IMG/VR virus record: IMGVR_UViG_3300033155_000018
Coordinates: 1-24,291 of that record
Length of the DNA stretch: 24,291 nucleotides
Strand: one strand, 5' to 3'
Source of the DNA: a virus
The position numbers and the translations under genes are program-made. Within the stretch, counting starts at the first letter, position 1. Each line of letters opens with the position of its first letter. The notes beneath the pieces were generated by a model. The model searched no databases and was not told the origin of the DNA. It was given only the letters and a program-made list of their open reading frames with translations. Shown piece after piece: positions 1 to 24,291 of the stretch.

Positions 1-500
1 CTGACATTAGATGCCGCTAAAGCACCTGTTAGGGTTATGTTGTTTGCATCTATGTTACCGTTTCCAGATGATGTATTTGCTAATACATATCCAAAATCAC
101 CTGACAAATTACCTATGACTGTATTACCTTGAACATTACCTGACACTACTACATCAGTAATATTTGCTATCGAATTAGGTAAATCAATGTATAATGTTTG
201 AGTAGAATCTGTGATAGTCGCAGTACCTGGGCCTGTACCCGGTGAACGACCTACTGATAAAGTTGTTGAAGAAAACTGAACACATGCAATGTTTGCACCT
301 AATACAACGTTACCTACTGGGGAACCATTAACTAAATATACTCCGGGTCCTGCAGTTTTGTTGACTGATACTACTGCTTGGTCACCTAACCCCGCAAATA
401 CTTCTGTAAAATTTAACTGAACTTTTTCAAACGCCGATCGTATTGCATCTGCATCTGGATCGTCAGGGAATGCTCCGAAGTCAATATTTCTTTGTGCCAT
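1..500 (-). CDS. Fibre-like virion structural protein, N-terminal part (runs off left edge)
   Basis: The first 166 codons are present; the stop lies left of base 1. The N-terminus contains NIDFGAFPDDPDADAIR followed by an aromatic-rich helix (FEKVQLNFTEVF). I recognise this as the usual start of long structural or tail-fibre-type proteins of marine T4-like phages. Beyond about residue 45 the sequence becomes rich in Gly, Asn, Val, Thr and Ser (VVLGANIACVQFSS, NVQGNTVIGNLSG), which fits beta-rich shaft repeats. The ATG at 498-500 is the only sensible start, and a late promoter element lies 21 bases upstream. The same Asn/Gly/Val repeat style appears in the partial gene at the right edge, so both probably belong to the fibre set. 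The exact role (fibre, baseplate decoration) cannot be told from this fragment. Confidence 0.75.
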   Translation of the reverse strand, partial: MAQRNIDFGAFPDDPDADAIRSAFEKVQLNFTEVFAGLGDQAVVSVNKTAGPGVYLVNGSPVGNVVLGANIACVQFSSTTLSVGRSPGTGPGTATITDSTQTLYIDLPNSIANITDVVVSGNVQGNTVIGNLSGDFGYVLANTSSGNGNIDANNITLTGALAASNV

Positions 501-521
501 AGTAATTCTATCCTAATATTA

Positions 522-530
522 GTATTTATC
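522..530 (-). promoter_or_regulatory. T4-type late promoter element GATAAATAC
   Basis: On the minus strand GATAAATAC lies 21 bases upstream of the ATG of the fibre-like gene. It sits downstream of the terminator that ends the preceding gene. It matches the T4 late consensus TATAAATA at seven of eight positions. The same element recurs before five other virion genes here. Confidence 0.65.
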
Positions 531-553
531 AATCTTAGTTCTTATTACCTAGA

Positions 554-583
554 TAAAAAAATACCCGACTAAGCCGGGTATTT
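554..583 (-). terminator. Intrinsic terminator after the 544-aa repeat protein
   Basis: A nine-base-pair stem (AAATACCCG paired with CGGGTATTT) has a seven-base loop and, read on the minus strand, is followed by a run of seven T. It lies about 25 bases past the TAA of the upstream gene and before the late promoter of the next one. It therefore separates two transcription units. Confidence 0.8.
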
Positions 584-607
584 AAGTGGGTACAACGAGT
601 TTTCTTA

Positions 608-2242
608 TTATTTTAGACTATCTAATTTGTTTAAAATAGTTGCAAATCCGCTTGATGAAAGTACAGAACCTTCTTTAACAACGTCAGCACCATTGTAGCC
701 CATTCTGTCTTCTTGACCAGCAATGACTGGGATAGTTGTTTGTCCTGTTGACTTCTGTTTGTTAATTCCACCTGAGATAACTTTAGTCATAAAGTCAATG
801 TCTTGTTCAAATGATGTTTCAGTACCGTTCTTGCCTGCATCATTAGCCCATTCGTCAACTTTTTCTTTTTCATCTTTAGAATCATCTTTATCTTTAGAAT
901 CATCTTTTTTATCAGGATAGATATCCTTGAGATTTTTAGCAGTAATTTTTTTGCCTGAATCATCTTTTAGTTTATTAAACCATTTTTCTTCATCTTCTGC
1001 TACTTTGAATTCTCTTTGATCATCAGTTTGCATTTCAGTGATTTCTTCGTTCTCACCATCGTTTATAGAGTCCTTAGGGGCATCCTCTGCGCCTTCTTTA
1101 GTTAAAAGTCTCTCATCATCATGTTGTGATAATGGCTGAGTAGGTTCTTCTGAAGTTTCTGCACCTACTTCTGCTAATAAGTCTAAAGTTCTAAGATTTT
1201 CTTCTAAAGAAACGTGTCTGTCTTCTTTATCTCTCTTACCGAACTTACCATATGAATCATCTCTGCGATCTTTCATACTTTGTTTCTTATCAGATTCTTT
1301 ACCTTTACGCATACCTAATGACTCATCTTCTTCGTCATCATAGCCTTGCTTTTCGTCTAACTGAGCAAGTTCGTCTAACTGAGATAAAGTTTCTTCTAAA
1401 GATTTTTCTCTATGTTCTTCATCTCTCTTACCGAACTTACCATATCTTTCATCTCTACGGTCTTTCATTGACTGCTTCTTGTCAGACTCTTTACCGTCTT
1501 TCATGCCTAATGACTCATCTTCTTTGTCATCATAGCCTTGACCTTCTTCCATATGGTGCTCATCTTTCCAGTCATCGTATTCTAAATCTTTAACGATGTC
1601 TTCACCATCTCTTCCTGGGTGCTTACGACCGTCGTACTTTGCGTGTCGTGCAACTTCTTTACCTGCACGTTCTGCATGATCGTCTCTTTCAGCATCAGAT
1701 TCTTCGTCAATGCCTTTTTTAGCAACTGTAGATGCGTCCCAATCATACTTGTCGTATATTCCTGCATCTTTTTCTTGTTCTTCTAATGAAACATCTCTGT
1801 GTTCTTCGTCACGTTTACCGAACTTACCGTAAGAGTCGTCTCTACGATCTTTCATTGATTGTTTTTTGTCAGACTCTTTGCCTGTACGCATGCCTAATGA
1901 CTCGTCTTCTTCGTCATCGTAGCCTTGCTTTTCTTCTAAATGTCCACCGTGTCTATGACCGAAGTCTCCACGTGAATCATCTCTGCGATCAGCATAAGAT
2001 TGTTTCTTGCTAGATTCTTTGCCGTCTTTCATGCCGAGTTGTTCGTCTTCTCTATCGTTATAGCCTTGATCTTCGTATGCTTTGTCTCCACAGCCTTCTT
2101 CCATGCTATGTCCGCCACCGCATTCGTCACATGATTCTTCGTCTACATCGACTACAACACCTGGTGCTTCTACTTCGTCTTCGTAATCACCGTCTACGTC
2201 TACAATACCCATTAACTTGAGCATGTCATCGTGTGAACTCAT
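608..2242 (-). CDS. Acidic repeat-rich conserved phage protein, C-terminal half of a probably split gene
   Basis: This 544-residue, highly charged, presumably largely disordered protein has no assigned function. Four copies of a ~40-44-residue repeat lie at about residues 59-97, 106-149, 235-278 and 299-342, with cores such as ESLGMRTGKES, KKQSMKDRRD and YGKFGKR. The motif YDKYDWDASTVAKKGIDE (about 163-180) recurs in the preceding ORF. C38, C41 and C51 form a possible CxxC metal site. A Lys/Asp-rich run is followed by a more ordered C-terminus (DIDFMTKVISGGINKQK). I recognise the family from marine T4-like phages. The ATG at 2242 has no good ribosome binding site. The frame stays open for 36 coding-looking codons upstream, back to 2350, where it meets the end of the preceding ORF. 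The likely reading is one gene of about 1115 codons broken by a one-base deletion. The product may be a virion component. Confidence 0.7.
   Translation of the reverse strand: MSSHDDMLKLMGIVDVDGDYEDEVEAPGVVVDVDEESCDECGGGHSMEEGCGDKAYEDQGYNDREDEQLGMKDGKESSKKQSYADRRDDSRGDFGHRHGGHLEEKQGYDDEEDESLGMRTGKESDKKQSMKDRRDDSYGKFGKRDEEHRDVSLEEQEKDAGIYDKYDWDASTVAKKGIDEESDAERDDHAERAGKEVARHAKYDGRKHPGRDGEDIVKDLEYDDWKDEHHMEEGQGYDDKEDESLGMKDGKESDKKQSMKDRRDERYGKFGKRDEEHREKSLEETLSQLDELAQLDEKQGYDDEEDESLGMRKGKESDKKQSMKDRRDDSYGKFGKRDKEDRHVSLEENLRTLDLLAEVGAETSEEPTQPLSQHDDERLLTKEGAEDAPKDSINDGENEEITEMQTDDQREFKVAEDEEKWFNKLKDDSGKKITAKNLKDIYPDKKDDSKDKDDSKDEKEKVDEWANDAGKNGTETSFEQDIDFMTKVISGGINKQKSTGQTTIPVIAGQEDRMGYNGADVVKEGSVLSSSGFATILNKLDSLK
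1217..2068 (-). repeat. Four in-protein repeats of about 120-130 bases
   Basis: The repeats encode a charged unit that begins QGYDD..DESLGM and ends YGKFGKRD..HR. Copies lie at 1952-2068, 1796-1927, 1409-1540 and 1217-1348. Copies 2 to 4 are nearly identical in protein; copy 1 has diverged (QSYADRRDDSRGDFGHR). Copies 1 and 2 are almost adjacent. Copies 2 and 3 are separated by a spacer holding the YDKYDWDA motif. DNA-level identity is lower than protein identity, which points to selection on the protein rather than recent duplication. Confidence 0.85.
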
Positions 2243-2337
2243 TGGTTGCTCACTTTGATCTGGGCTACCATAGAATGATACGTCTGCAACTTCACCGGGT
2301 GCATCTAAAACTTCTGCATCACCGTAGTTACCTAAGC

Positions 2338-2353
2338 CTACGTCTCGTCTTTA
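2338..2353 (-). other. Frame junction: apparent one-base deletion joining the 538-aa and 544-aa ORFs
   Basis: The 538-aa frame ends with TAG at 2338-2340. The next frame opens right after a TAA at 2351-2353 and continues without interruption into the 544-aa ORF. The total span 608-3954 is 3347 bases, one short of a multiple of three. No XXXYYYZ-type slippery heptamer lies in the overlap, so programmed -1 shifting is not supported. Confidence 0.6.
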
Positions 2354-3954
2354 ACAAACTTGATTAACTTGTCTGCTTCTGCATCTGTTGCATTAACACT
2401 TACTCTATCAGGCTGATTCATTTCGCCTTGAGTAATAGACATTGTATAGCCTTCATCAAGTTTTTCTTTTGTTGTTTCTACACTTTCATTTAAGTGTGTG
2501 TTTAATTCTTTATCTAAAGACTCAAAAGTCCACTCATCTTCTTCTAATGTAGCGGCTTCTGATGTTTTTGTAAATGTTTTGTCACCTACTGCAAATTTTT
2601 CGCCTTTATCTGCTTTTGCTAGGGCGCCTGTGAATGCATTACCTTCGTCCATATCATCTTCATCAATGCCTTTACGTGCTACAGTTTGTGCGTCCCAGTC
2701 ATATTTGTCATAAGCACCGTCATCATCTGCGCCAACGTTTCCGTCTGGTGAAGATTCTGCTTCGCCCATTGCACCGTAAGATGCCATAGTATCTACGACT
2801 TCGCCTTCGCCTTCGTTAGCATGATCTTTAGTTGCTAAATGTCCTAATGCACCGCCTGCTACTGCTCCAGGAATACCTGCTGTTTTACCACCTAAGTATG
2901 CTCCTGCTACTGCTCCCGGCAATCCTTCTTCCATACCTACGATAGGATCATTTTTGATTCCCATGCCACATGCTTCATCTAGGCCTCTTTTATAACCTTC
3001 GTGGTATGCTTTTGCACCTTCAGAACCTTCATCATGCGGACATGCATACGATCCTTTACATAAACCATGAGCATGACCCATGTGTTTCGCGGCTTTCAGA
3101 ATGTGGTCTGCGCCTTCTTTTAAGTTTGTTTTAGTATTTTTAATCATAATATTAAGTTCTTGTTGGTTGCACTTAGGGTGCAGTTGTTTTATATCTTTTG
3201 CTGACAAACCTTCATTACACATCTCTTTAACACGTGAAATGCTAGGTAAAGTACTCTCTGTACTTTCTGCAAAAGTCTTCTCTTTAACAAGTTGAGGAGT
3301 GTCGGCATCATTAGCGGCTAGTGCCGCATTAGCGGCCGCATTCCCTTTCTCATCATTAGTTGAATTAGGTGATCCATCGTCTGCTGGATATTGAGCACCT
3401 TCTTCAAATGTTAAGGGAGATGCTTGACCTGGACCTTGTGGGGGCATTTCACCCTCTTTCATCTTGCCTAATGTTTTAGCAAGATTTGCTTGTTTTTCTG
3501 TTTTTGCTGGGAAATCATCTTTATGTGATAAAACATGATTTGCAAATTCTTTAGTAGACATACCATGTCTTTTTGCTTTTGCTGAAAAAGCACCTGGATT
3601 TTTAATTGCGCCTGAGATCCAATCTTTTGCTTCTTGGATTTCTTCTTCACCAATTGTGAGTTCGCCCTTGTCCATTGCTTGTTTCATTTGAGATGCAACT
3701 GTTGGGTTTGAAACTGATCCAATTGCTTGACCGTCTTTTTGAATGACTTGAGCACCAGGCTGTGCTGGCTCTAGTGAAAGTTCTTCAAAGACATTCTTAA
3801 GAGATGGTACTTTAACGCCTTCGACAACTTCAACAGTCTCTGCTGATTCAGTCAACATATTACTAGGTCGAGTTGTTTGTTTTTCACCTAATAACTTGTT
3901 ATCTTCGTCTTTAGTTACTTCTTCAAACTTGTTTAAGATGTCTTTAAAATCCAT
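2338..3954 (-). CDS. Conserved marine T4-like phage protein, N-terminal part of a probably split gene
   Basis: This 538-residue protein has unknown function. The start at 3954 is supported by an AAAGGA ribosome binding site. In order, it has an acidic N-terminus, then a helical segment (about 110-165) containing IKNPGAFSAKAKRHG and QANLAKTLGKM, a module I recognise from cyanophage structural-region proteins. A second helical module follows (ISRVKEMCNEGLSAKDIKQL), then a Cys/His patch (GHAHGLCKGSYACPHDE). A glycine-rich hydrophobic stretch (PGAVAGAYLGGKTAG, PGAVAGGALG) could pack as a glycine zipper. It also carries YDKYDWDAQTVARKGIDE, which recurs in the next ORF. The C-terminal DAEADKLIKFVKDE reads like the middle of a longer family member. 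It lies in the virion gene block after the 208-aa gene, with a gap of 11 bases. Late virion or head-core functions are possible but unproven. Confidence 0.75.
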   Translation of the reverse strand: MDFKDILNKFEEVTKDEDNKLLGEKQTTRPSNMLTESAETVEVVEGVKVPSLKNVFEELSLEPAQPGAQVIQKDGQAIGSVSNPTVASQMKQAMDKGELTIGEEEIQEAKDWISGAIKNPGAFSAKAKRHGMSTKEFANHVLSHKDDFPAKTEKQANLAKTLGKMKEGEMPPQGPGQASPLTFEEGAQYPADDGSPNSTNDEKGNAAANAALAANDADTPQLVKEKTFAESTESTLPSISRVKEMCNEGLSAKDIKQLHPKCNQQELNIMIKNTKTNLKEGADHILKAAKHMGHAHGLCKGSYACPHDEGSEGAKAYHEGYKRGLDEACGMGIKNDPIVGMEEGLPGAVAGAYLGGKTAGIPGAVAGGALGHLATKDHANEGEGEVVDTMASYGAMGEAESSPDGNVGADDDGAYDKYDWDAQTVARKGIDEDDMDEGNAFTGALAKADKGEKFAVGDKTFTKTSEAATLEEDEWTFESLDKELNTHLNESVETTKEKLDEGYTMSITQGEMNQPDRVSVNATDAEADKLIKFVKDET

Positions 3955-3965
3955 AATATTATCCT

Positions 3966-4592
3966 TTAGTACCCTGCTGATGTTTCAGGCTTGGGTCCTC
4001 TTTTAACGTCAGTCATTGGACTCTTTTGACCTTTAATTGAATCATCAGTCCAAGGCTTCCAAGGATCAAAAGAATCTTTAGTGTTCTTCTGATCAGGAGG
4101 TAAACCTACTTTACCAACGTTCTTGTATTCTGCATGTTTATGTATACTGTCTAAGTACTTATCACCGTATTCTTCTGATGCTTCTTTTCCATTGTCATTC
4201 ATTTCTTCGTGTTGCAGAATAGGTGAATCTTTCATTTCGTTTTCATAACCAACCATTTCTTCGTCAATACCTTCATCAAATGCAGTATTAACCATTCTTA
4301 CGTAATTAACGTTATGACCTAGCAGTTGTGCTAGTTGCTGAACCATGGGCTCAGTTACTGGATATGCAAATTCACATTTAAATATGTGTACTTGCTCATT
4401 TGAAAGATTGGGGAAACCATATGGTGATTTCATAATCGGTGTTGATGTTGGGCCTTTAATTGACTTAGGCTCAAACTTGTTTAAGTTATGCTTAAATAAC
4501 TCTAAGAAATTTTTGCTACAGTCACCGGCAATTTTGATTGTACAATCATAAGTGTGGACTGACTCTGCAATGTAATGTTTTAAACTTTTCAT
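3966..4592 (-). CDS. Conserved T4-like marine phage protein of unknown function (208 aa)
   Basis: The N-terminus MKSLKHYIAESVHTYDCTI begins a compact alpha/beta domain (about 1-105) that includes YGFPNLSNEQVHIF and YPVTEPMVQQLAQLLG. A loop-rich tail follows, with DSPILQHEEM, a lysine-rich stretch and a closing SPMTDVKRGPKPETSAGY. I recognise the whole arrangement, including the K-S-P-M-T..KR.P.PE ending, as a family conserved in marine T4-like phages and always without an assigned role. The gene starts 28 bases after the gp16-like stop and has its own late promoter element at that stop. A GGGAA sequence 13 bases upstream may act as a weak ribosome binding site. The position among head-packaging and structural genes suggests a late protein. 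No enzyme motif is visible. Confidence 0.75.
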   Translation of the reverse strand: MKSLKHYIAESVHTYDCTIKIAGDCSKNFLELFKHNLNKFEPKSIKGPTSTPIMKSPYGFPNLSNEQVHIFKCEFAYPVTEPMVQQLAQLLGHNVNYVRMVNTAFDEGIDEEMVGYENEMKDSPILQHEEMNDNGKEASEEYGDKYLDSIHKHAEYKNVGKVGLPPDQKNTKDSFDPWKPWTDDSIKGQKSPMTDVKRGPKPETSAGY

Positions 4593-4614
4593 ATTGTATA
4601 GTTCCCGTATAATA

Positions 4615-4622
4615 TATTTATC
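4615..4622 (-). promoter_or_regulatory. T4-type late promoter element GATAAATA
   Basis: On the minus strand GATAAATA lies 23-30 bases before the ATG of the 208-aa gene. Its first two bases are the last two of the TGA stop of the gp16-like gene, giving TGATAAATA. The promoter and an in-frame tandem stop (TGA TAA) are thus packed into the same bases. Confidence 0.6.
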
Positions 4623-5106
4623 ATTCCTCTGTGTTTTTTGACGTTAATACTCGTAGTAATTCATTACGATCTAAATTCTGAGCACCGTCCCCTAAAGGTA
4701 TATTGTCTATTTTTTCTTCCATTTTTGCTTGACGTTGATCTAGTGTTGCTTTCTTTAATTGTAAATCAATCATCTTTAATTTCTTGTTTAACTTAGCAGT
4801 CTTAGCGGTTATAGCACGATTGAGCATGTTACTAGCAACACTTAAAATGTCACCACTGAAACGTGAATCTACTTGCATTCCTAAGTCCATTAAATCTTGG
4901 AAACTAGTTTCTGCTTTCTTACTTAGTTCATCCATTTCTCTGTCTGATGCTTCTAGTCCTCTAACTGTAGGCAAAGCAGTTTCAATCTTTTCTAAGTTAC
5001 TCAATGCTTCTTTAGTAACTTCTTCTGCTACGCCAGGAATAGGTTCATTCAGTTCATTTTCATCACTGGATGCTAAGTCAAATAATTCTTCAAGTTTCTT
5101 TGTCAT
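4621..5106 (-). CDS. gp16: gp16-like small terminase subunit
   Basis: At 161 residues this is close to T4 gp16 (164). Small terminase recognises phage DNA and stimulates the large subunit (gp17) during headful packaging. The protein starts with a short acidic motif (KKLEELFDLASSDENE). A central helical region follows (about 60-135: RGLEASDREMDEL, SFQDLMDLGMQVDSRFSGD, ITAKTAKLNKKLKMIDLQLKK) that should form the coiled-coil oligomerisation core typical of the family. The tail is polar. The assignment rests on length, helical layout and resemblance to marine T4-like versions; similarity to T4 gp16 itself is faint. It follows gp4 with a 12-base gap. The stop is TGA with an in-frame TAA directly after it. 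The large terminase is not in the window. Confidence 0.7.
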   Translation of the reverse strand: MTKKLEELFDLASSDENELNEPIPGVAEEVTKEALSNLEKIETALPTVRGLEASDREMDELSKKAETSFQDLMDLGMQVDSRFSGDILSVASNMLNRAITAKTAKLNKKLKMIDLQLKKATLDQRQAKMEEKIDNIPLGDGAQNLDRNELLRVLTSKNTEE

Positions 5107-5118
5107 ATATCTATTTAG

Positions 5119-5565
5119 TTACTTTCCTCGTCCATTATAGAAAAGGTCATCTTCTGTAACTACTCTAAATTTAATACCCTGTGATTTACAGAATGCTTGT
5201 GCTGATTTCCATTTAGCATGATTGATTGCAATGACTGCTTGTTGTCTTGCATTTTTAACTTTTTCTGTTATAATGCTTTCTGCTTTAGGTTTGATTTCTA
5301 TCAATTCGGCATTTGTTCTTCCGTATTTGTCTTGGTAAACAATAAAAAAGTCTGGTATATAATTAGTTCTTCTACCTTTAAAAGGATGTAAGTAAGGAAT
5401 AACAATAGATTCACTGGCCCATTTAATTATTTTGTCATTAGTATCACAGAAAATCATAAATGTAAGTTCCCAGCCTGATCGATACTTAGGCTTACCTTTG
5501 CCTACATATTTTTCTGGATTTTTTACAGTATAGATACCCTGTGCGTATTTTTTTCTACGAGGCAT
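5119..5565 (-). CDS. gp4: gp4-like head completion nuclease
   Basis: At 148 residues this matches the T4 gp4/50 head-completion protein (about 150). That protein acts on filled heads before tail joining and carries a PD-(D/E)XK nuclease-type fold. The motif residues are visible: E33 in SGWELTF, D72 in YIPDFFIVY, and E90 with K92 in LIEIKPKAE. A helix with NHAKWKSAQAFCKSQGIKF follows, then VVTEDDLF. The layout resembles TnsA-like nucleases. A TAAGG ribosome binding site overlaps the TAA stop of the upstream gene. It sits next to the small terminase, so two head-maturation genes are neighbours, which is not the T4 arrangement. Nuclease activity is inferred from motifs. Confidence 0.8.
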   Translation of the reverse strand: MPRRKKYAQGIYTVKNPEKYVGKGKPKYRSGWELTFMIFCDTNDKIIKWASESIVIPYLHPFKGRRTNYIPDFFIVYQDKYGRTNAELIEIKPKAESIITEKVKNARQQAVIAINHAKWKSAQAFCKSQGIKFRVVTEDDLFYNGRGK

Positions 5566-5574
5566 TGATTGACC

Positions 5575-5952
5575 TTAAGGTACTACGTTACGTTGTACTG
5601 CTTGATTAGGAATAGGAACGTTGGATACACCATACAATGCTGTTTTTGACTTTAATAAATTAAGATAAAAAGCCATTTCTGTGTTTACTTGTAATGTAGT
5701 TTCTACATTAGTTCTAAAGTAATCCATAAAGATATTGATATTTGTTCCTGTTTCTTGTGCAATTCTAAACAATACAGTTGCAAATTGACTAGCAGTTTGT
5801 TGTGTTCTTTCTGATTCAGGATTTCCTTTTATTACTCCTAAAAAATAAGAATAAACTGCGTCCCATTCTGCCGCATTTACTTTTAAATCTTGTGCATAAA
5901 AACTATCAAAGATTCTTATTGTGTTTTCTTGTTTTGTTACTTGTATAGTCAT
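5575..5952 (-). CDS. Conserved small marine T4-like phage protein (125 aa)
   Basis: I recognise this as a conserved family of marine T4-like phages with no assigned function. Its N-terminal beta-rich segment (TIRIFDSFYAQDLKVNAAEWDAV) is followed by helices (QFATVLFRIAQETGTNINIF, MAFYLNLLKSKTALYG). The ending VPIPNQAVQRNVVP is typical of the family. Its start overlaps the stop of the 401-aa tube-fold gene by one base (TAATG), which implies translational coupling. It precedes gp4 with a nine-base gap. Co-occurrence with tube genes suggests a tail-assembly or tube-accessory role. This is inference, and no catalytic motif is visible. Confidence 0.75.
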   Translation of the reverse strand: MTIQVTKQENTIRIFDSFYAQDLKVNAAEWDAVYSYFLGVIKGNPESERTQQTASQFATVLFRIAQETGTNINIFMDYFRTNVETTLQVNTEMAFYLNLLKSKTALYGVSNVPIPNQAVQRNVVP

Positions 5953-7157
5953 TACATTCCACTAGTTTGCATGCCAGCAGGTGATGGGTCTGCTGGGTCG
6001 GGTGCTACAGGTTGTCCATTAGATGAGAATGAACTTTGATTATTAAATTGAGTCATCTCAGGAGATGCCGCATTTGTCGGGAAAAAGGCACTTGTATCTG
6101 CTTCAGGTCCTAATCCTAATTTGTTAAGAACTGTTTCAGTTAATCCTTCAGTTACTGCTTTTTTCGCACTATCAACAACAGTATCTAAACCACCGTCATA
6201 TAGTTGTCCTAGAGTTCTTGCTTTTTCTAGTAGACTCTCATCCTCTCCTGCAAGAGATTTCATATTTTTAAAAATATCACCTATATTACTACCACCTTGT
6301 TCTAAAGGACTTTCTCTGTTATCATAATTTGCATCTGCTCCGAAACCTTCAACTAGATCACCAGTTAACTCACGTGTACCGTCTTCTCTTTTTTCTCCAA
6401 TTTCACCTGTGTTATAAAGAACAGTTTCATAATCTATAGTCATTCTATTTTGCATCGTGCCAGCACCGTCTGCATAATCATATGTATCATGGTCAAATGA
6501 TGTGAGAACTGGATTAATTAATGTGTAAGCAATAAAGTTTCCTGCCCACATACCATATATAGTAATGTTATTAAAGAACGGAACTTTTTCTCCTGATGTT
6601 TCTTGTGGTGATCCAGGCGCCCCTCTAACATCTCCTCTATAACCATATTCAGTATCACCTGATATTGATGGATCATAAATGTTACGTCTGTTGTAATTCT
6701 TAGTTGAGCCACTAGATGATCCTTCTGTAAATCTACTAATTGTAGGGTTCCAGGAATCTGCATAATTGTATCTATAGTATGCGTCCCACATTGCAGTGAC
6801 TTGTGACATGTTATCATCATGGAATGTAATATCAATTGGTTGATATTTAATTTTTGATTGAATCAAACGTTTTCTATTATATTGATTCATTTCTTGTACT
6901 TCCATATTAAATGTAGGTAACTTAACTTGTTTGACTAATAAACCGTAGTTTTGTCCTGTTGGTGGGGCATAAGCGGCTTCGTTAATAGAAAAATAAGTAT
7001 GAAACTCAAATTTAACTTTGCCTGCGTTACCATATCCACCAGGTAAAAATGTTTTAGCCGCATGTTGCCAATCACGTAAGTATACTCGACCAGTTAACTG
7101 ATCTAGTATTCCAGTCTTTACTGAATCTACAATTCTGTCGACGGCACCTGAAGCCAT
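5952..7157 (-). CDS. Second tail-tube-fold virion protein (gp19/gp54-like)
   Basis: Residues about 45-275 read like the tube-protein fold shared by T4 gp19, gp48 and gp54. Visible segments are FEFHTYFSINEAAY, LVKQVKLPTFNMEVQEMNQY, YQPIDITFHDDN, a Trp/Tyr-rich helix (MWDAYYRYNYAD), and later NPVLTSFDHDTYDYADG followed by MTIDYETVLYNTGE. Between them lies a Tyr/Gly/Ser-rich loop (NYNRRNIYDPSISG). The C-terminal 125 residues are helical then low-complexity, rich in Pro, Asn and Ser. At 401 residues it is longer than T4 gp54 (320) or gp19 (163). A baseplate tube initiator or a tube-associated capping protein would fit. I cannot decide between gp48, gp54 and a marine-specific paralogue. It has an AGGAG ribosome binding site and its own late promoter after the gp19 terminator. 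Confidence 0.65.
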   Translation of the reverse strand: MASGAVDRIVDSVKTGILDQLTGRVYLRDWQHAAKTFLPGGYGNAGKVKFEFHTYFSINEAAYAPPTGQNYGLLVKQVKLPTFNMEVQEMNQYNRKRLIQSKIKYQPIDITFHDDNMSQVTAMWDAYYRYNYADSWNPTISRFTEGSSSGSTKNYNRRNIYDPSISGDTEYGYRGDVRGAPGSPQETSGEKVPFFNNITIYGMWAGNFIAYTLINPVLTSFDHDTYDYADGAGTMQNRMTIDYETVLYNTGEIGEKREDGTRELTGDLVEGFGADANYDNRESPLEQGGSNIGDIFKNMKSLAGEDESLLEKARTLGQLYDGGLDTVVDSAKKAVTEGLTETVLNKLGLGPEADTSAFFPTNAASPEMTQFNNQSSFSSNGQPVAPDPADPSPAGMQTSGM

Positions 7158-7177
7158 ATTAATTTTCTCCTATAAGA

Positions 7178-7186
7178 GTATTTATC
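7178..7186 (-). promoter_or_regulatory. T4-type late promoter element GATAAATAC
   Basis: On the minus strand GATAAATAC lies 20-29 bases upstream of the ATG of the 401-aa tube-fold gene, just after the gp19 terminator. The AGGAG ribosome binding site lies between the element and the ATG. Confidence 0.65.
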
Positions 7187-7202
7187 TAAACAATAAACCC
7201 AT

Positions 7203-7227
7203 AAAAAAACCGGTCGAAACCGGCTTT
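7203..7227 (-). terminator. Intrinsic terminator after gp19
   Basis: On the minus strand a GCCGGT/ACCGGT stem with a TTCG loop is followed by seven T. It lies about 25 bases beyond the TAA of gp19. It separates gp19 from the late promoter of the next gene. Confidence 0.85.
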
Positions 7228-7249
7228 CTTATTTAATCTAAGTCTGTAC

Positions 7250-7897
7250 TTATGTTGAGTTATTAGTATTACTTGGGAAAGTCTGTAACCCTGATTGTCC
7301 TACACCAGCACCTGGTACGCCGTTGATATCACCACCAGCATTTGTCTGGATTGCGTTATCGTAACGTAAAGTCATTGCAATAGTAACTGCATCAGATGTA
7401 CCATAGTTTAGTGTCTGATAGTTTGCTTGTTGTAAATAACAACCTGCTAATGACCAGTTTTCTAATACTGTTGGTGTAGAGATGCCATTACCACCGTCTA
7501 AGATTTGAATTTCAGTACTGAATTTATAATCAGAACCGGCTGCCGCTGAAGACTGCTCATAGAAATCTAATTGACGTTGTAACTGTGCACCGACTGCTTT
7601 TGATACATTACCAGAAGCATCGTCTCTGACGTTAATTGCAAGTGTTTGCCATGTGTGCTTACCAGCAAGATAGACACGTGAGTTATACACGTTCATTGTG
7701 ATTTCATCAAACTGAACTTGTGGTCTCGCACAATCTACAACTTGTCTTGTAAGTATAAGTGAAGAATCATCGTCAAAACCAAAATTAATAAAGTTCACAC
7801 GGAATCTATATTGAAGTTTTGGCATCAACAAGTTTTGGTTAGCACCTCCCTCAGGTTGTACCGAAAGTTTTGCTAATGTATCTGAGGCTGTTGCCAT
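7250..7897 (-). CDS. gp19: Tail tube protein gp19
   Basis: This protein forms the inner tube of the contractile tail, polymerising inside the gp18 sheath. Visible tube-family features include YRFRVNFINFGFDDDS, a strand pair around VVDCARPQVQFDEITMNVYN, then SRVYLAGKHTWQTLAINVRDD, and later QLDFYEQ. The C-terminal strands ENWSLAGCYLQQANYQTLNYG and VTIAMTLRYDNAIQT also fit. At 215 residues it is longer than T4 gp19 (163). The extra length includes an N-terminal arm and a Gly/Asn/Ser-rich tail of about 25 residues. It lies directly after gp18, as in T4. It has a strong CAGGAG ribosome binding site, its own late promoter and a clear terminator, which suits a protein needed in many copies. Confidence 0.88.
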   Translation of the reverse strand: MATASDTLAKLSVQPEGGANQNLLMPKLQYRFRVNFINFGFDDDSSLILTRQVVDCARPQVQFDEITMNVYNSRVYLAGKHTWQTLAINVRDDASGNVSKAVGAQLQRQLDFYEQSSAAAGSDYKFSTEIQILDGGNGISTPTVLENWSLAGCYLQQANYQTLNYGTSDAVTIAMTLRYDNAIQTNAGGDINGVPGAGVGQSGLQTFPSNTNNST

Positions 7898-7930
7898 TGT
7901 TAATCTCCTGTTTTAATATATCTTAATATA

Positions 7931-7938
7931 TATTTATC
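7931..7938 (-). promoter_or_regulatory. T4-type late promoter element GATAAATA
   Basis: On the minus strand GATAAATA lies 33-41 bases before the gp19 ATG. It lies downstream of the hairpin that follows gp18, so gp19 can be transcribed separately from gp18. Confidence 0.6.
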
Positions 7939-7947
7939 TTTTTAATT

Positions 7948-7980
7948 CAGAGAGGCCGAAGCCTCTCTGTATATCTTTTT
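7948..7980 (-). terminator. UUCG-capped hairpin between gp18 and gp19
   Basis: A perfect nine-base-pair stem (CAGAGAGGC with GCCTCTCTG) has a TTCG loop on the minus strand, giving the very stable C(UUCG)G tetraloop. It lies right after the gp18 stop. On the minus strand it is followed by AATTAAAAAG, a poor T tract, so it may stabilise or process the message or terminate weakly. On the plus strand it is followed by TATATCTTTTTT and would be a good terminator for antisense transcripts. Confidence 0.65.
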
Positions 7981-7982
7981 TA

Positions 7983-10900
7983 TTAAGATCCTGATAACTC
8001 ACCAGTGTTGAATATTCTGACCGGAACGTAGATAAACTCAGCGGCTTTCACGGGCTCTACTGCTATGTCAATCCAAAGTTCATTTCGATCAATTCTTGCT
8101 GGAGTGTTGTTAGAATCATCACAGACTACTGAGTAGTCATATAATCCTCGTTTTGAAACTAGATCCTGGAACAATGTTTCTACTACTGCTTTAATAGACT
8201 TTCTTGTTTGAGGGTCATTAGGTTCAAAGACAAATGGTCTTGCGGCTAATATTAATTGTCTACGTATGTAAGCAACTAATCTTGCTACGTTTACTCTGTC
8301 TAATGCAGATGATGAATCAAATGAAGTTTTGTTACCATAGTTCAATAATCCATTACCTGTAAAGAATACCATTGGGTTAATAAAGTTAGTGTATAACACA
8401 TCTCTAATACCAATACGTGTTCTGATTGAGTTAAATTCGCCTTCTGCATCAATGTAACCAATGCTTGTAGCATTATCGATTATACCACGTCTAGTACCTG
8501 CTGGTGCTAACCAAGGATAAGCAATATTGTCATTACGTAACATAGTTCTTGTCATCATGTGTGATGATGGAACAGCAACTAAGTTACCTGATAGATCACT
8601 AGTGATACCTGATGGATAGAATAGACCCATGTAAGTATTTCTAGTTACAAGTCCATCTTCTCCTGTTGTTACTGCACCTGCGGCGTTAGTTGCCCAAGCC
8701 TGAATATCAGTTGCATCATCTTTCAGTCTCATTGGTGTATCACCGACGATGTAAGAAGTTTCACCTCTATCAGAGTTCAATGCTACCATGTTAGGCTGTA
8801 GTTCAGGATAACCTGGAGTTGCTTGTAAGTTGAAGAAGTTATCTTCATCTCTAATTGCAACGTTAGAGTCTATTGCTGAACGTAATGCTTGTGTTACCAT
8901 TGCTCTCTGTGCTTTACGACCTGCGTACATTGCGCCGTCAGACTGATCGCCTGAAGCAGATACCCATGCATCTTTCTGTACTGGTAAAGAAGCAGACGGG
9001 AATCTATCACTGTTAAAGTAGTTTACACGATACTGTTTAACGTTGTATGAAGAACGTCTTGTGTTCCAAAGCAACATACCTTGTGGATAGTTTGCTGATA
9101 AAGGAGCATCAATATCTAAGTAATCACTTGCTAACAATGACTTGATACTTGGTACTGGGTCATTTGCTGGATTAGTTGTGCCGTTAGTTGCCCAACGTGC
9201 ATCTTTAAATAAAATACCTTGTGGTGTAGTTTGATCAGAGTTGTCGATTAAGACCCACTTATCAGTAGCACTACCGCCACCTGTTGCTGGTACTGATTGC
9301 CATCTATAGAGTAACGGATAGTTCTCTAAGTCAGCAGTACTTAACCAAAGATCACCGTATACTAGTGCTGTGCCGTCACTTTGAAGTGTAGGCTCACTAG
9401 CAGATACAATTGGTCCTGCTGGATCAGTTGCATTTACGACTGATGGGCTAGGTAATCCGTTTGCATCATAACCTTGTGACTTATAGCCTTTCCAATTACC
9501 GTCATAGTTGATCATAATGTCTACTTGATCAGTTGATGAATAGTACCAGTTAGTAAAGTTAGTTGGTATTGCAGTTGGAGCGCCTTCATTTGCTGTTAAT
9601 GAATTTGCACCTGAAGTTGTTAATGAGAATTCTTTCCAGTTAGATAACTGAGTTGTGAATGCATTTGCACCTGATCCTGAAGACCATGTGTAAGATGTAA
9701 CAACACCTGCTGTAACACTTGATACTGTAACAACTAAGTCATTTGCTGGAGAAGCACCACCTAAGTCTGTACCTAAGAAAGTAACTCTATCTCCTACTGC
9801 GTGACCACTACCACCAGAAACTACTGCATCTGGATCAAAGTCATAATAACCGTAGTCATTAGTTACTTTAATTTGTAAAGCAGTACCTGCTCCTGTTGTA
9901 GCACTTTGAGTTGTTGTAAATTCGATGTCATCTCTAAATGGTCCATTTTTACATCCTGCTGTAGCAGTTGTAAATCCTGCTTGTGAGAATAAACCAGATG
10001 AAACTCCTGTTGCGTTATCAAAGTCGTCTAAGATTATAACACCACCTGATGTGTGTTGTAATTGAATAGAACCGTCATCGTTTACACTTGCTGAAGTGTA
10101 AGGAATGTTTGCCGCTGACCATGCAGTTACAAAGTCAGATGCATCAGTGTTATCGCCTAAGTTAAACGGATAAGGGCTACTTAAAGTCTGTGAGCCAGGA
10201 GTTGAAATTTGAACTCTTGCTACATATGGTCCTGATGTAAAGTCTGGTGCAGTGTTTGTACCGTTGATTACTGTTGCCCCAGTGCCTGCTCTGTAGTAAT
10301 AATATACTGGTGCCGCACCATACTCGCCATTGTAGCCGTATTGTGCATAAACAGAACCTGCCGCTATTGCTTGTCCACCTGTTGAATCTGCTGAATAGAT
10401 TTGAGACCAATCAGAAGTTGCAAAAGTTGGAGTCTTAGTAGTGTAAGATGCTGATGTTGAATCATATTCAGCAATTACTGGTTGTAATCCAGTTCCGTCA
10501 ACCTTAACCCATACAGAACCAGTTGGTGCGGGTTCTGCTTGACCTGATTGCCATAATGGCTGTTGAGCAGATGTACCGTATAATGCTCTTGGCTGGAAGC
10601 CAGTTACATTAGTTCCTGTAAATCCTAAGTCTGTAAAGATAGTACCTGTTGCGTTAGCAAGTCTAATGTAGAATGGTGACTCAGGTGAACCTTGATCTCC
10701 ACCTGTCTGAGCAGAGTAGATTTCAAGTTTCTGATCGATAACTGCGGCTGAAATCCAACCCCAGTTAAGAGCATTAATGTCTGCCGCTAACTGAGATACA
10801 GTGTTATTTGGAGCCGCTGATACTGTTAACTGAACTACGTTAGTACCGTTGACAACTAAATCAATAGTATCACCTTGTGTTAATGTAGGATTAGATGTAG

Positions 10901-15504: not shown

Positions 15505-15954
15505 TTAAAACGCCTTTAAAATAATCATTTGATCGTTGAAACGACCTTTTGGTTGAATACCCACTGCTTTTATTTCGTCAAAGAATTTACGGGCCGCGGG
15601 CTTACTACCCATAATCTCTTTAATTTGTTCTTTGGGTTTACGTAATGTCTTAATTGCACTCTTAGACTTATCAAATCCATACAATGTGTTACCCTTGACG
15701 AACATTTCTCCTGCCATATCTTCTGCGACATAGTGATGAAGTTTTCTCTTAGCAGTATCATAGCACCATGCTTCTTTAGACATGTGTAATTCTGTTGGTC
15801 TGATACTTTCTAGTTTTAGTTTAGTTGTTTCACACTCAAACCTTTTTTGATACTTTAACTTTTGAGTTGCTTTTTCAGGAGTAATTGGCTTAGTTCTGCG
15901 TTTAGCCCTGTTTTTAATCTTAAGAGCCTGATATGAATTCAACACTCCGATCAT
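15505..15954 (-). CDS. C-terminal part of a frameshifted conserved phage protein
   Basis: The 149-residue ORF from ATG 15954 begins MIGVLNSYQALKI, but the frame is open back to 16023. Those 23 extra codons read YSNEAYSHFNKRKLKGII and onward, which is conserved family sequence, so the ORF start is internal. The protein has a basic linker (KIKNRAKRRTKP), then a C-terminal domain with ELHMSKEAWCYDTAKRKLHHYVAEDM, then LYGFDKSKSAIKTLRKP. Its last segment is IKAVGIQPKGRFNDQMIILKAF. In marine T4-like phages the N- and C-terminal parts normally form one protein, function unknown. The split looks like a one-base loss near 16018. It ends four bases before the SGNH-like gene. Confidence 0.7.
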   Translation of the reverse strand: MIGVLNSYQALKIKNRAKRRTKPITPEKATQKLKYQKRFECETTKLKLESIRPTELHMSKEAWCYDTAKRKLHHYVAEDMAGEMFVKGNTLYGFDKSKSAIKTLRKPKEQIKEIMGSKPAARKFFDEIKAVGIQPKGRFNDQMIILKAF

Positions 15955-15980
15955 AGAGTCATATGCATTTATAATGCCTT

Positions 15981-16526
15981 TTAATTTTCTTTTGTTAAAG
16001 TGACTGTATGCTTCATTGCTGTATTAAATTTAGCATCTGCTTTGATCTCGTCTTCAAAGAATTGATCCATGATGCCATCAATCTCTCCACCTGCTTCCAT
16101 TAACTTGCCAAGCATGATTTCTTGTATAGAAGGACGATTGGGTTTGTCTTTTGCTTTTTCTTCTTTTACTTGAGCAATCTGTTTACCTTTCTCTAACCAT
16201 TCTTCTTTGAGTTTAGCAATATGATTAATATGACCTTCTGGCATATACCCAACTCTGTTTAGAAAATATACAGATGTACCAGTAGAGTTAAAGTTCCAGT
16301 CTGGATTTCTAAGAATAATTTCGATTTCTTCTGTGGTGTAACCAGATTCTTTTTTGATCCAAGTTTTAAATTCTGTCAGTCTTTTCTTGTCACTGATTTC
16401 TGTACGAATAAAATACTGGCAGTCTTGGTATGCCTTTGCCCGTGCTTCTTGGTCTTCAATATCTTTGTACTTTTCCCAGTCAGGTTCAGGTGTCAAATAA
16501 ACTGTCTTTTGTTTACGTCTTGCCAT
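15981..16526 (-). CDS. N-terminal part of a frameshifted conserved phage protein
   Basis: The 181-residue ORF starts MARRKQKTVYLTPEPDW, which I recognise as the N-terminus of a protein conserved in marine T4-like phages. It continues with ARAKAYQDCQYFIRTEISDKK, TWIKKESGYTTEEIEIILRN, NSTGTSVYFLNRVGYMPE and a lysine-rich helix. The final 13 or so residues (AMKHTVTLTKEN) are frame-shifted sequence: the conserved EAYSHF reading is in the -1 frame at the same place. Joining 16526 to 15505 gives 1022 bases, one short of 341 codons. The function is unknown; the mixture of basic and acidic helices suggests a nucleic-acid- or protein-binding role. The start has an AAGGGA ribosome binding site and a sigma70-like promoter. 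Confidence 0.72.
   Translation of the reverse strand: MARRKQKTVYLTPEPDWEKYKDIEDQEARAKAYQDCQYFIRTEISDKKRLTEFKTWIKKESGYTTEEIEIILRNPDWNFNSTGTSVYFLNRVGYMPEGHINHIAKLKEEWLEKGKQIAQVKEEKAKDKPNRPSIQEIMLGKLMEAGGEIDGIMDQFFEDEIKADAKFNTAMKHTVTLTKEN
16012..16023 (-). other. Frameshift site in the split conserved gene
   Basis: The -1 frame opens just after a TAA at 16024-16026, so the missing base must lie downstream of it. Adding one A to the AA at 16016-16017 would give ...NTANEAYSHFNKR, restoring the family reading. No slippery heptamer is present. Confidence 0.6.
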
Positions 16527-22292: not shown

Positions 22293-24291
22293 TTACAGAC
22301 GACCGACTGCTACCTCAAGAATAGACAATTCAGTATTAGTTTTGTCTTCGATAGCCTTACCTAAAGTCATGCCAGGATGCATTATTGTAGCAACATGATA
22401 CCAAGCAGTTGCACCACCTTGACCATCACTTACCATAACATCACCTTTCTGACATGAGCCTGTTACTTTACATGGTACTCTACCTTGTAATGCGACAGCA
22501 ACTGGAATGCCTGGACACTCTGAATTCATTACATATGCTGGATTAGTTGATACTATACCTGCTACTCGTCTACTACCTTTTTCATCAGAAACATGAACTT
22601 CTTTACTACCACCAAAACATACAACAGTACCTGGTTCATATACTTCTTCACCGTTATAATACTCAGCCAAGTCAGCATATGTTGCTTCTAATTTAGATCC
22701 TGCAGTCAATGACCAGTTACCTGTTATTGAACCTGCTGTAGTGTTTGCACCTGATGTAAGTGCTGTTGCTGTAATCGTTGTTGTGTCTACTGAACTTGCA
22801 CTTATGCCAAATCCACTTATGGAGCCGGTTCCGGCAATATTTGCAATACCAGTAAGATTAACACTTCCATTACCTGCAATGTTACCTCCAGATGGCATTG
22901 AAAGACCACCAGTTCCTGTAACAACTTCCGTACCTTCTATTGTTGGAGCAAATACTTTTCCTGTTGCATTAACATTTCCTGCACTAACATTTGCAGAAAC
23001 AGTTAATGATGATAGTGTACCAACAGATGTAATGTTGGCTTGTGCGGCGCCTGAAACTGTACCGGCTACTGATGCTAATGCTACAGTACCTGATACATTT
23101 GCGCCAGCAACTGCATTAGCAGTCGCGGCAAAGTTAACTTGACCTGCAACGTTTGCCCCTTGAACATTAGAAACATTGCCTGCATCTCCTTGAAGTATAC
23201 CAACAACGTTACCGATAAATTGATCTGCGGCTACTCTGTTAGTAAATGTTGTGTGAGTTGCATTTGATGTAATTTCTTGGAAGCCTAATGTGATAGACGA
23301 TCCTGATAGATATAAATCTTTAAATCTATTTGTGTTGTTTCCTAAGTCATAAGAAACGTTTGCATCTGGAGTAATGTCTCCTGATACTTCTAAACTTGTA
23401 AGTGTACCAACACTAGTGACATTTGGTTGTGCGGCTGTTGTTAATGGACCCGTAAGAGTCGATCCTGACACATCATAAGTTGCTTCAACATTGCCTGATA
23501 CGAATTTTGCATTCGCAGTATCAAATGTATAACTACCACTGACGTTGAGTGGTTTATTACCTGTTGCAGAAGTAGATACTAATGCTGGGAAATAATTTCC
23601 TGTAGTAAGATTACCTACTACACTGTTATCTACTACGTTAGCATAATCAACATTTAAATTTGCTACACGTGTTGTAGAGTCTACGACAATAGGTGTCGTA
23701 CCCGTTGCTACGTTTGAAAATAGTCTGGATGATGTGACTGATCCAGTTGCATTTAAATTTCCTACATTTGCATTACCATTAACAGTTAAAGTTTTACCTG
23801 CACTAAAGTCCCAAGTAAAATCTCCATCACCATCAATAACACCTGAGTTATTATATTGTACACTTGTGTTACTACCTTGGGCCGCTGATCCACCTGTTCC
23901 GCCACCTACTGATGCTACTGCTCTACCACCTACACCATATACATATGATGCTGAAAAGGTTGCAGTTGTTAATGCTTTGATTGGTCCTGCTACGCCGTTT
24001 GCATATACAGAATCTGAAACTGTAATCGTTGTACCGCCTGGCTTACTGTTAACGTAATATGTATTTGCTATATTTAATTCACTACCGTCTACATTTCCTG
24101 TAAATCTGACAGGAATATTTAATGCAAATACAGAAGAATCACCAACAGTGATTTGGTTAGTTGCTATAGTTGATGAGTCTGCGTTAGTGTAAGAGTAAGC
24201 ATTAAATCCTGTCCCGTTAACTGGTGTTGTTAATGAAGTATCAGAGTATAATGAAAATGTATTTGCTGTTAAAACATTAGCATAATATGTA
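22293..24291 (-). CDS. Long fibre-like virion protein, C-terminal 665 codons (runs off right edge)
   Basis: The frame is open from the TAA at 22293 to the right edge, with no stop in 665 codons. A GTG at 23469-23471 is therefore internal and not the start. The upstream part holds shaft-like units (TYYANVLTANTFSLYSD; NTYYVNSKPGGTTITVSD). GSNTSVQYNNSGVIDGDGDF and TWDFSAGKTLTVNGN follow, a segment I know from marine phage fibres. Then come long Ala/Asn/Val/Gly repeats (ADQFIGNVVG, NITSVGTLSSL). The C-terminal domain of about 150 residues contains ATYADLAEYYNGEEVYEPG, GTVVCFGG and RRVAGIVSTNPAYVMN. Its ADLAEYY and VAGIVS..P motifs recall Peptidase_G2-type autoproteolytic chaperone domains of phage appendages, which I could not verify. 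A tail fibre or baseplate appendage is likely. Confidence 0.75.
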   Translation of the reverse strand, partial: TYYANVLTANTFSLYSDTSLTTPVNGTGFNAYSYTNADSSTIATNQITVGDSSVFALNIPVRFTGNVDGSELNIANTYYVNSKPGGTTITVSDSVYANGVAGPIKALTTATFSASYVYGVGGRAVASVGGGTGGSAAQGSNTSVQYNNSGVIDGDGDFTWDFSAGKTLTVNGNANVGNLNATGSVTSSRLFSNVATGTTPIVVDSTTRVANLNVDYANVVDNSVVGNLTTGNYFPALVSTSATGNKPLNVSGSYTFDTANAKFVSGNVEATYDVSGSTLTGPLTTAAQPNVTSVGTLTSLEVSGDITPDANVSYDLGNNTNRFKDLYLSGSSITLGFQEITSNATHTTFTNRVAADQFIGNVVGILQGDAGNVSNVQGANVAGQVNFAATANAVAGANVSGTVALASVAGTVSGAAQANITSVGTLSSLTVSANVSAGNVNATGKVFAPTIEGTEVVTGTGGLSMPSGGNIAGNGSVNLTGIANIAGTGSISGFGISASSVDTTTITATALTSGANTTAGSITGNWSLTAGSKLEATYADLAEYYNGEEVYEPGTVVCFGGSKEVHVSDEKGSRRVAGIVSTNPAYVMNSECPGIPVAVALQGRVPCKVTGSCQKGDVMVSDGQGGATAWYHVATIMHPGMTLGKAIEDKTNTELSILEVAVGRL

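Follow-up and report, generated by a model that had tools for sequence, protein, structure and literature searches.

We report that two neighbouring open reading frames (ORFs) of 538 and 544 codons in a viral metagenome contig are, judging by the homology of their sequences, two parts of one gene of ~1,100 codons, whose product would have roughly 1,115 residues, and that this gene was very probably broken by a chimeric metagenome join in which an overlap was left unmerged. The window, as we call the whole stretch of DNA analyzed (24,291 nucleotides), covers positions 1 to 24,291 of the record IMGVR_UViG_3300033155_000018.

The N-terminal part of the split gene lies on the minus strand at 2338..3954; its ATG is preceded by a ribosome binding site (AAAGGA), and it terminates with a TAG at 2340-2338. 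The C-terminal part (608..2242, minus) has an ATG at 2242 with no convincing ribosome binding site upstream, as the first-pass annotation had observed, and its frame is open upstream of this ATG from 2350, through the 36 codons that had been pointed out there (2350-2243; RRDVGLGNYGDAEVLDAPGEVADVSFYGSPDQSEQP). This open frame meets the end of the 538-aa ORF, as claimed, with an overlap of 13 bases, and what had been described as a total one base short of a whole number of codons is seen as an offset of -1. Both ORFs are acidic and both carry YDKYDWDA(Q/S)TVA(R/K)KGIDE, a motif correctly noted earlier as shared, in which DA and TVA are separated by a single variable residue where two had been given. 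The 544-aa part contains four imperfect charged repeats (QGYDD.EDESLGM..GKESDKKQSMKDRRD...GKFGKRD, at residues 60, 107, 236 and 300) and ends in a strongly conserved tail, EWAN.AG...FEQDI.FMT.VI.GG.NKQKSTGQT, which is the most conserved portion of the family. The length of the repeat-bearing region within 608-2242 varies among relatives.

Given the base composition, an open run of 36 codons would occur by chance in about 7% of cases and is not significant alone; homology is what decides for a single gene. Searching viral contigs with each half retrieved 28 loci for the first and 78 for the second, and after removal of duplicate loci of the same contig, 67 distinct viral contigs read through the junction in one open frame, in agreement with the single protein of about 1115 residues proposed before. 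Relatives that hold both halves have them, conserved cores included, in a single ORF, and distant relatives (~31-35% identity to the protein of contig L003) keep this arrangement together with the gene order: tail tube, second tube, small gene, gp4-type head closure, two small genes, split gene, fibre gene. Invariant columns flank the break on both sides, above all in the C-terminal EWAN... segment. In one homologous gene (L097:4033-6372), the frame is interrupted by one in-frame stop, in the 6163-6168 region, shortly ahead of the conserved C-terminal segment.

The same contigs bear on two other readings of the layout. Taken by itself, ORF prediction would give two independent genes, with ATG 2242 as the start of the second, and the first-pass annotation had named relatives with such an arrangement as the observation to look for. 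The search found none: the residue opposite the Met of ATG 2242 is a Met in 9 of 65 contigs and elsewhere Gln, Asn, Val or others, the ATG stands without a convincing ribosome binding site, and the 36 codons upstream of it are conserved coding sequence, a linker (2243..2350, minus; DVGLGNYGDAEVLD...) that is coding in every intact relative. We consider two genes very improbable. Programmed -1 ribosomal frameshifting, which would yield a short and a long protein, fits the -1 offset and the 13-base overlap, but the overlap (codons AAA GAC GAG ACG TAG) contains no slippery heptamer, the frame is continuous in the 67 contigs and no relative has an overlap here. We give this mechanism almost no credence, and the earlier preference for a mutation or an assembly error, made in view of the missing slippery site, stands.

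The lesion itself had been read as a one-base deletion, which alignment of the window with L003, L005, L006, L007, L032, L004 and L016 rules out: five bases were gained. The window carries an extra AGACG adjoining the resident AGACG (2350-2346 and 2345-2341, minus), forming a tandem duplication at 2341..2350 where every relative aligned has one copy, and this gain of five bases shifts the frame in the same way as a loss of one. The alignments disagree at 2342-2350 solely on the placement of the extra five bases. Within the viral collection, the duplicated AGACG sequence was found in no other contig and the unduplicated form in 18 stretches.

The duplication falls where the nearest relative of the window changes. 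From 2351 upward the window is nearly identical to L003 (IMGVR_UViG_3300033153_000091), with 3 differences over 2351-8100 and a run of near-identity reaching about 8,120; below the break, identity to L003 falls to 39-99% per 100 bases. Window positions 1-2341 are nearly identical (3-4 mismatches) to L006 (IMGVR_UViG_3300025151_004231; 3 differences), L032 (IMGVR_UViG_3300026136_000184) and L005 (IMGVR_UViG_3300002483_000038), and above the break identity to L006 drops to 70-96% in most 100-base bins. These three contigs differ from the window in that their gene is continuous over the junction, with an N-terminal part at ~78-91% protein identity to that of the window. All diagnostic sites examined between 1719 and 2797 are of L003 type at or above 2371 and of L006 type at or below 2231; the 538-codon part is L003-type and the 544-codon part L006-type sequence. 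Inside the switch interval (2231..2371, unstranded) both parents are identical and the duplication alone is new. The chance of one such lesion landing in this 139-base interval of a 3.3-kb gene is ~4% (139/3347), and the duplication and the strain switch are therefore probably linked. A contig from another sample (L008) ends at window position 2353, 3 bases from the duplication.

Farther along, from ~8.1 kb, the window leaves its close match to L003, the best contigs being mostly 82-95% identical beyond 8.5 kb and 65-72% at 12.5-14 kb. Near 8.1 kb, either the window or L003 may pass from one strain to another within the tail sheath gene, because L003 is itself seamed there; the window has no duplication at that place.

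A lesion sitting at a strain switch moves the balance from mutation to an assembly join. Fragments of two related contractile-tailed phages would have been joined within a ~140-base stretch of identity, and a 5-base overlap (AGACG) would have been placed end to end rather than merged, leaving a tandem duplication and a shifted frame. The window has both marks expected of a chimeric join, a nearest-strain identity that switches at the lesion and a lesion that resembles an unmerged overlap and is missing in relatives. Chimeric contigs are known to arise where closely related viruses co-exist (PMC5610896). We infer that the seam originated in assembly, not in a phage genome.

Contig L003 offers a parallel. 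It contains an exact 58-base tandem duplication (L003 1774-1889) and a 59-base one with one mismatch (L003 1294-1411); exactly at these two duplications its similarity to the window falls, first from 99.9% to 97.2% and then to 91.0%, and its outermost segment matches L005 at 99.6% identity. Both duplications put its tail sheath gene out of frame. They are probably join errors; concatenated overlapping strain fragments would give this pattern. A chimeric join in the window explains why there is a duplication, why it lies where it does and why it is unique, as well as the parallel in L003. Several points weigh against a seam: mosaicism occurs naturally in phage genes, and L003 and L006 were recovered from separate samples, which makes a true recombinant possible; the overlap is 58-59 bases in L003 and 5 in the window, and the joining step may differ; and five-base tandem repeats are common in the window, which has 29.

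The frameshift might be real, the window being a natural recombinant of two strain types in which a 5-base duplication, at or near the crossover or independent of it, truncates the protein after its N-terminal part. Within the family the gene is mosaic, and a crossover could plausibly have taken place in the flanking 140 bases, which are identical in both parents. The truncation may also be tolerated, as most of the predicted folded segments lie in the N-terminal part and nearly all of the rest is predicted to be disordered. However, homologous exchange in identical sequence makes no duplication; recombination explains the switch only; the broken form is in no other contig, the C-terminal tail that would be lost is the family's most conserved part, and the same kind of duplication in L003 is an evident join error. 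We regard a real frameshift as unlikely, and as somewhat less likely still its fuller version, in which a junction-associated duplication in a real recombinant cut short a long structural protein, conserved and disordered, and a viable phage makes the N-terminal half only.

The intact protein is acidic and predicted to be mostly disordered, and conserved segments flank the break. Structure prediction for the intact L003 protein gave a mean pLDDT of 40.9, with 921 of 1,126 residues below 50, too poor for a fold search; such values may reflect disorder or an alignment that is too shallow. The break follows directly on a predicted strand-strand-helix element whose end is near residue 536. In Pfam nothing scored above the cut-off, and the protein's sole family match is that of residues 111-166 to PHROG 20603 (E 2e-16; WI..AIK.PGAF.AKAKR.GMS..EFA..V). 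With the N-terminal part, tblastn recovered this motif only, in Thermus phages and one uncultured gut phage; tblastn with the C-terminal part and with a distant relative found nothing, a nucleotide search of named phages gave no match, and a scan of bacterial and archaeal genomes yielded no confirmed relative. Gp23 and Portal_T4 were sought in six relatives and gave no hits, which says little, the controls having been empty too.

The gene sits between a head-closure and tail-tube cluster and a tail fibre gene, and upstream of it on the same strand lie two small conserved neighbours (208 and 161 aa; 3966..5106, in the same order in all relatives checked), a gp4-type head closure protein (5119-5565), a small protein (5575-5952) and two tail tube proteins (5952-7157 and 7250-7897). 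One ORF spanning both halves in relatives, within a conserved gene order, is what a single long virion-associated protein would give. From its position, the product is probably a virion or virion-assembly protein. The side-by-side tail tube-like proteins (401 and 215 aa) both match PHROG 4542 and are kept together in those of the checked relatives whose contigs include the region.

Elsewhere, each end of the window (1-500 and 22293-24290) falls within a minus-strand fibre-like gene. The left end carries the beginning of a gene of ~1,100 aa, found whole in L031 and L032, to which the right-hand gene is only weakly related. Adjacent ORFs of 149 and 181 aa at 15505-16526 match the C- and N-terminal parts of PHROG 11903 (383 positions), and are either one gene divided into two or a further case of breakage.

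The split gene matters mainly as a data-quality result, an error to flag. A strain switch coinciding with a short tandem duplication, in a gene whose frame is open in every relative, is a recognizable sign of a bad join, of which L003 shows two more. In gene counts and genome comparisons using these contigs, the halves should not count as genes, nor the contig as one genome. Behind the error stands a family of long, acidic proteins, encoded in conserved order beside tail genes in many environmental phages and with no function assigned.

With PHROG 20603, known from Thermus phage P23-45 and its relatives, this family shares a small motif, 56 of ~1,115 residues here; PHROG 20603 carries no functional annotation in PHROGs. 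A close comparison for the break is L003, near-identical to the window over 2351-8123, where tandem duplications likewise mark strain switches; there, in contrast, the split gene is intact (1,126 codons) and the broken gene is the tail sheath. The chimeric contigs described in short-read viromes (Roux et al., 2017, PMC5610896) likewise join two related genomes in a shared stretch, while in the window a short tandem duplication, which breaks the reading frame, comes with the proposed join.
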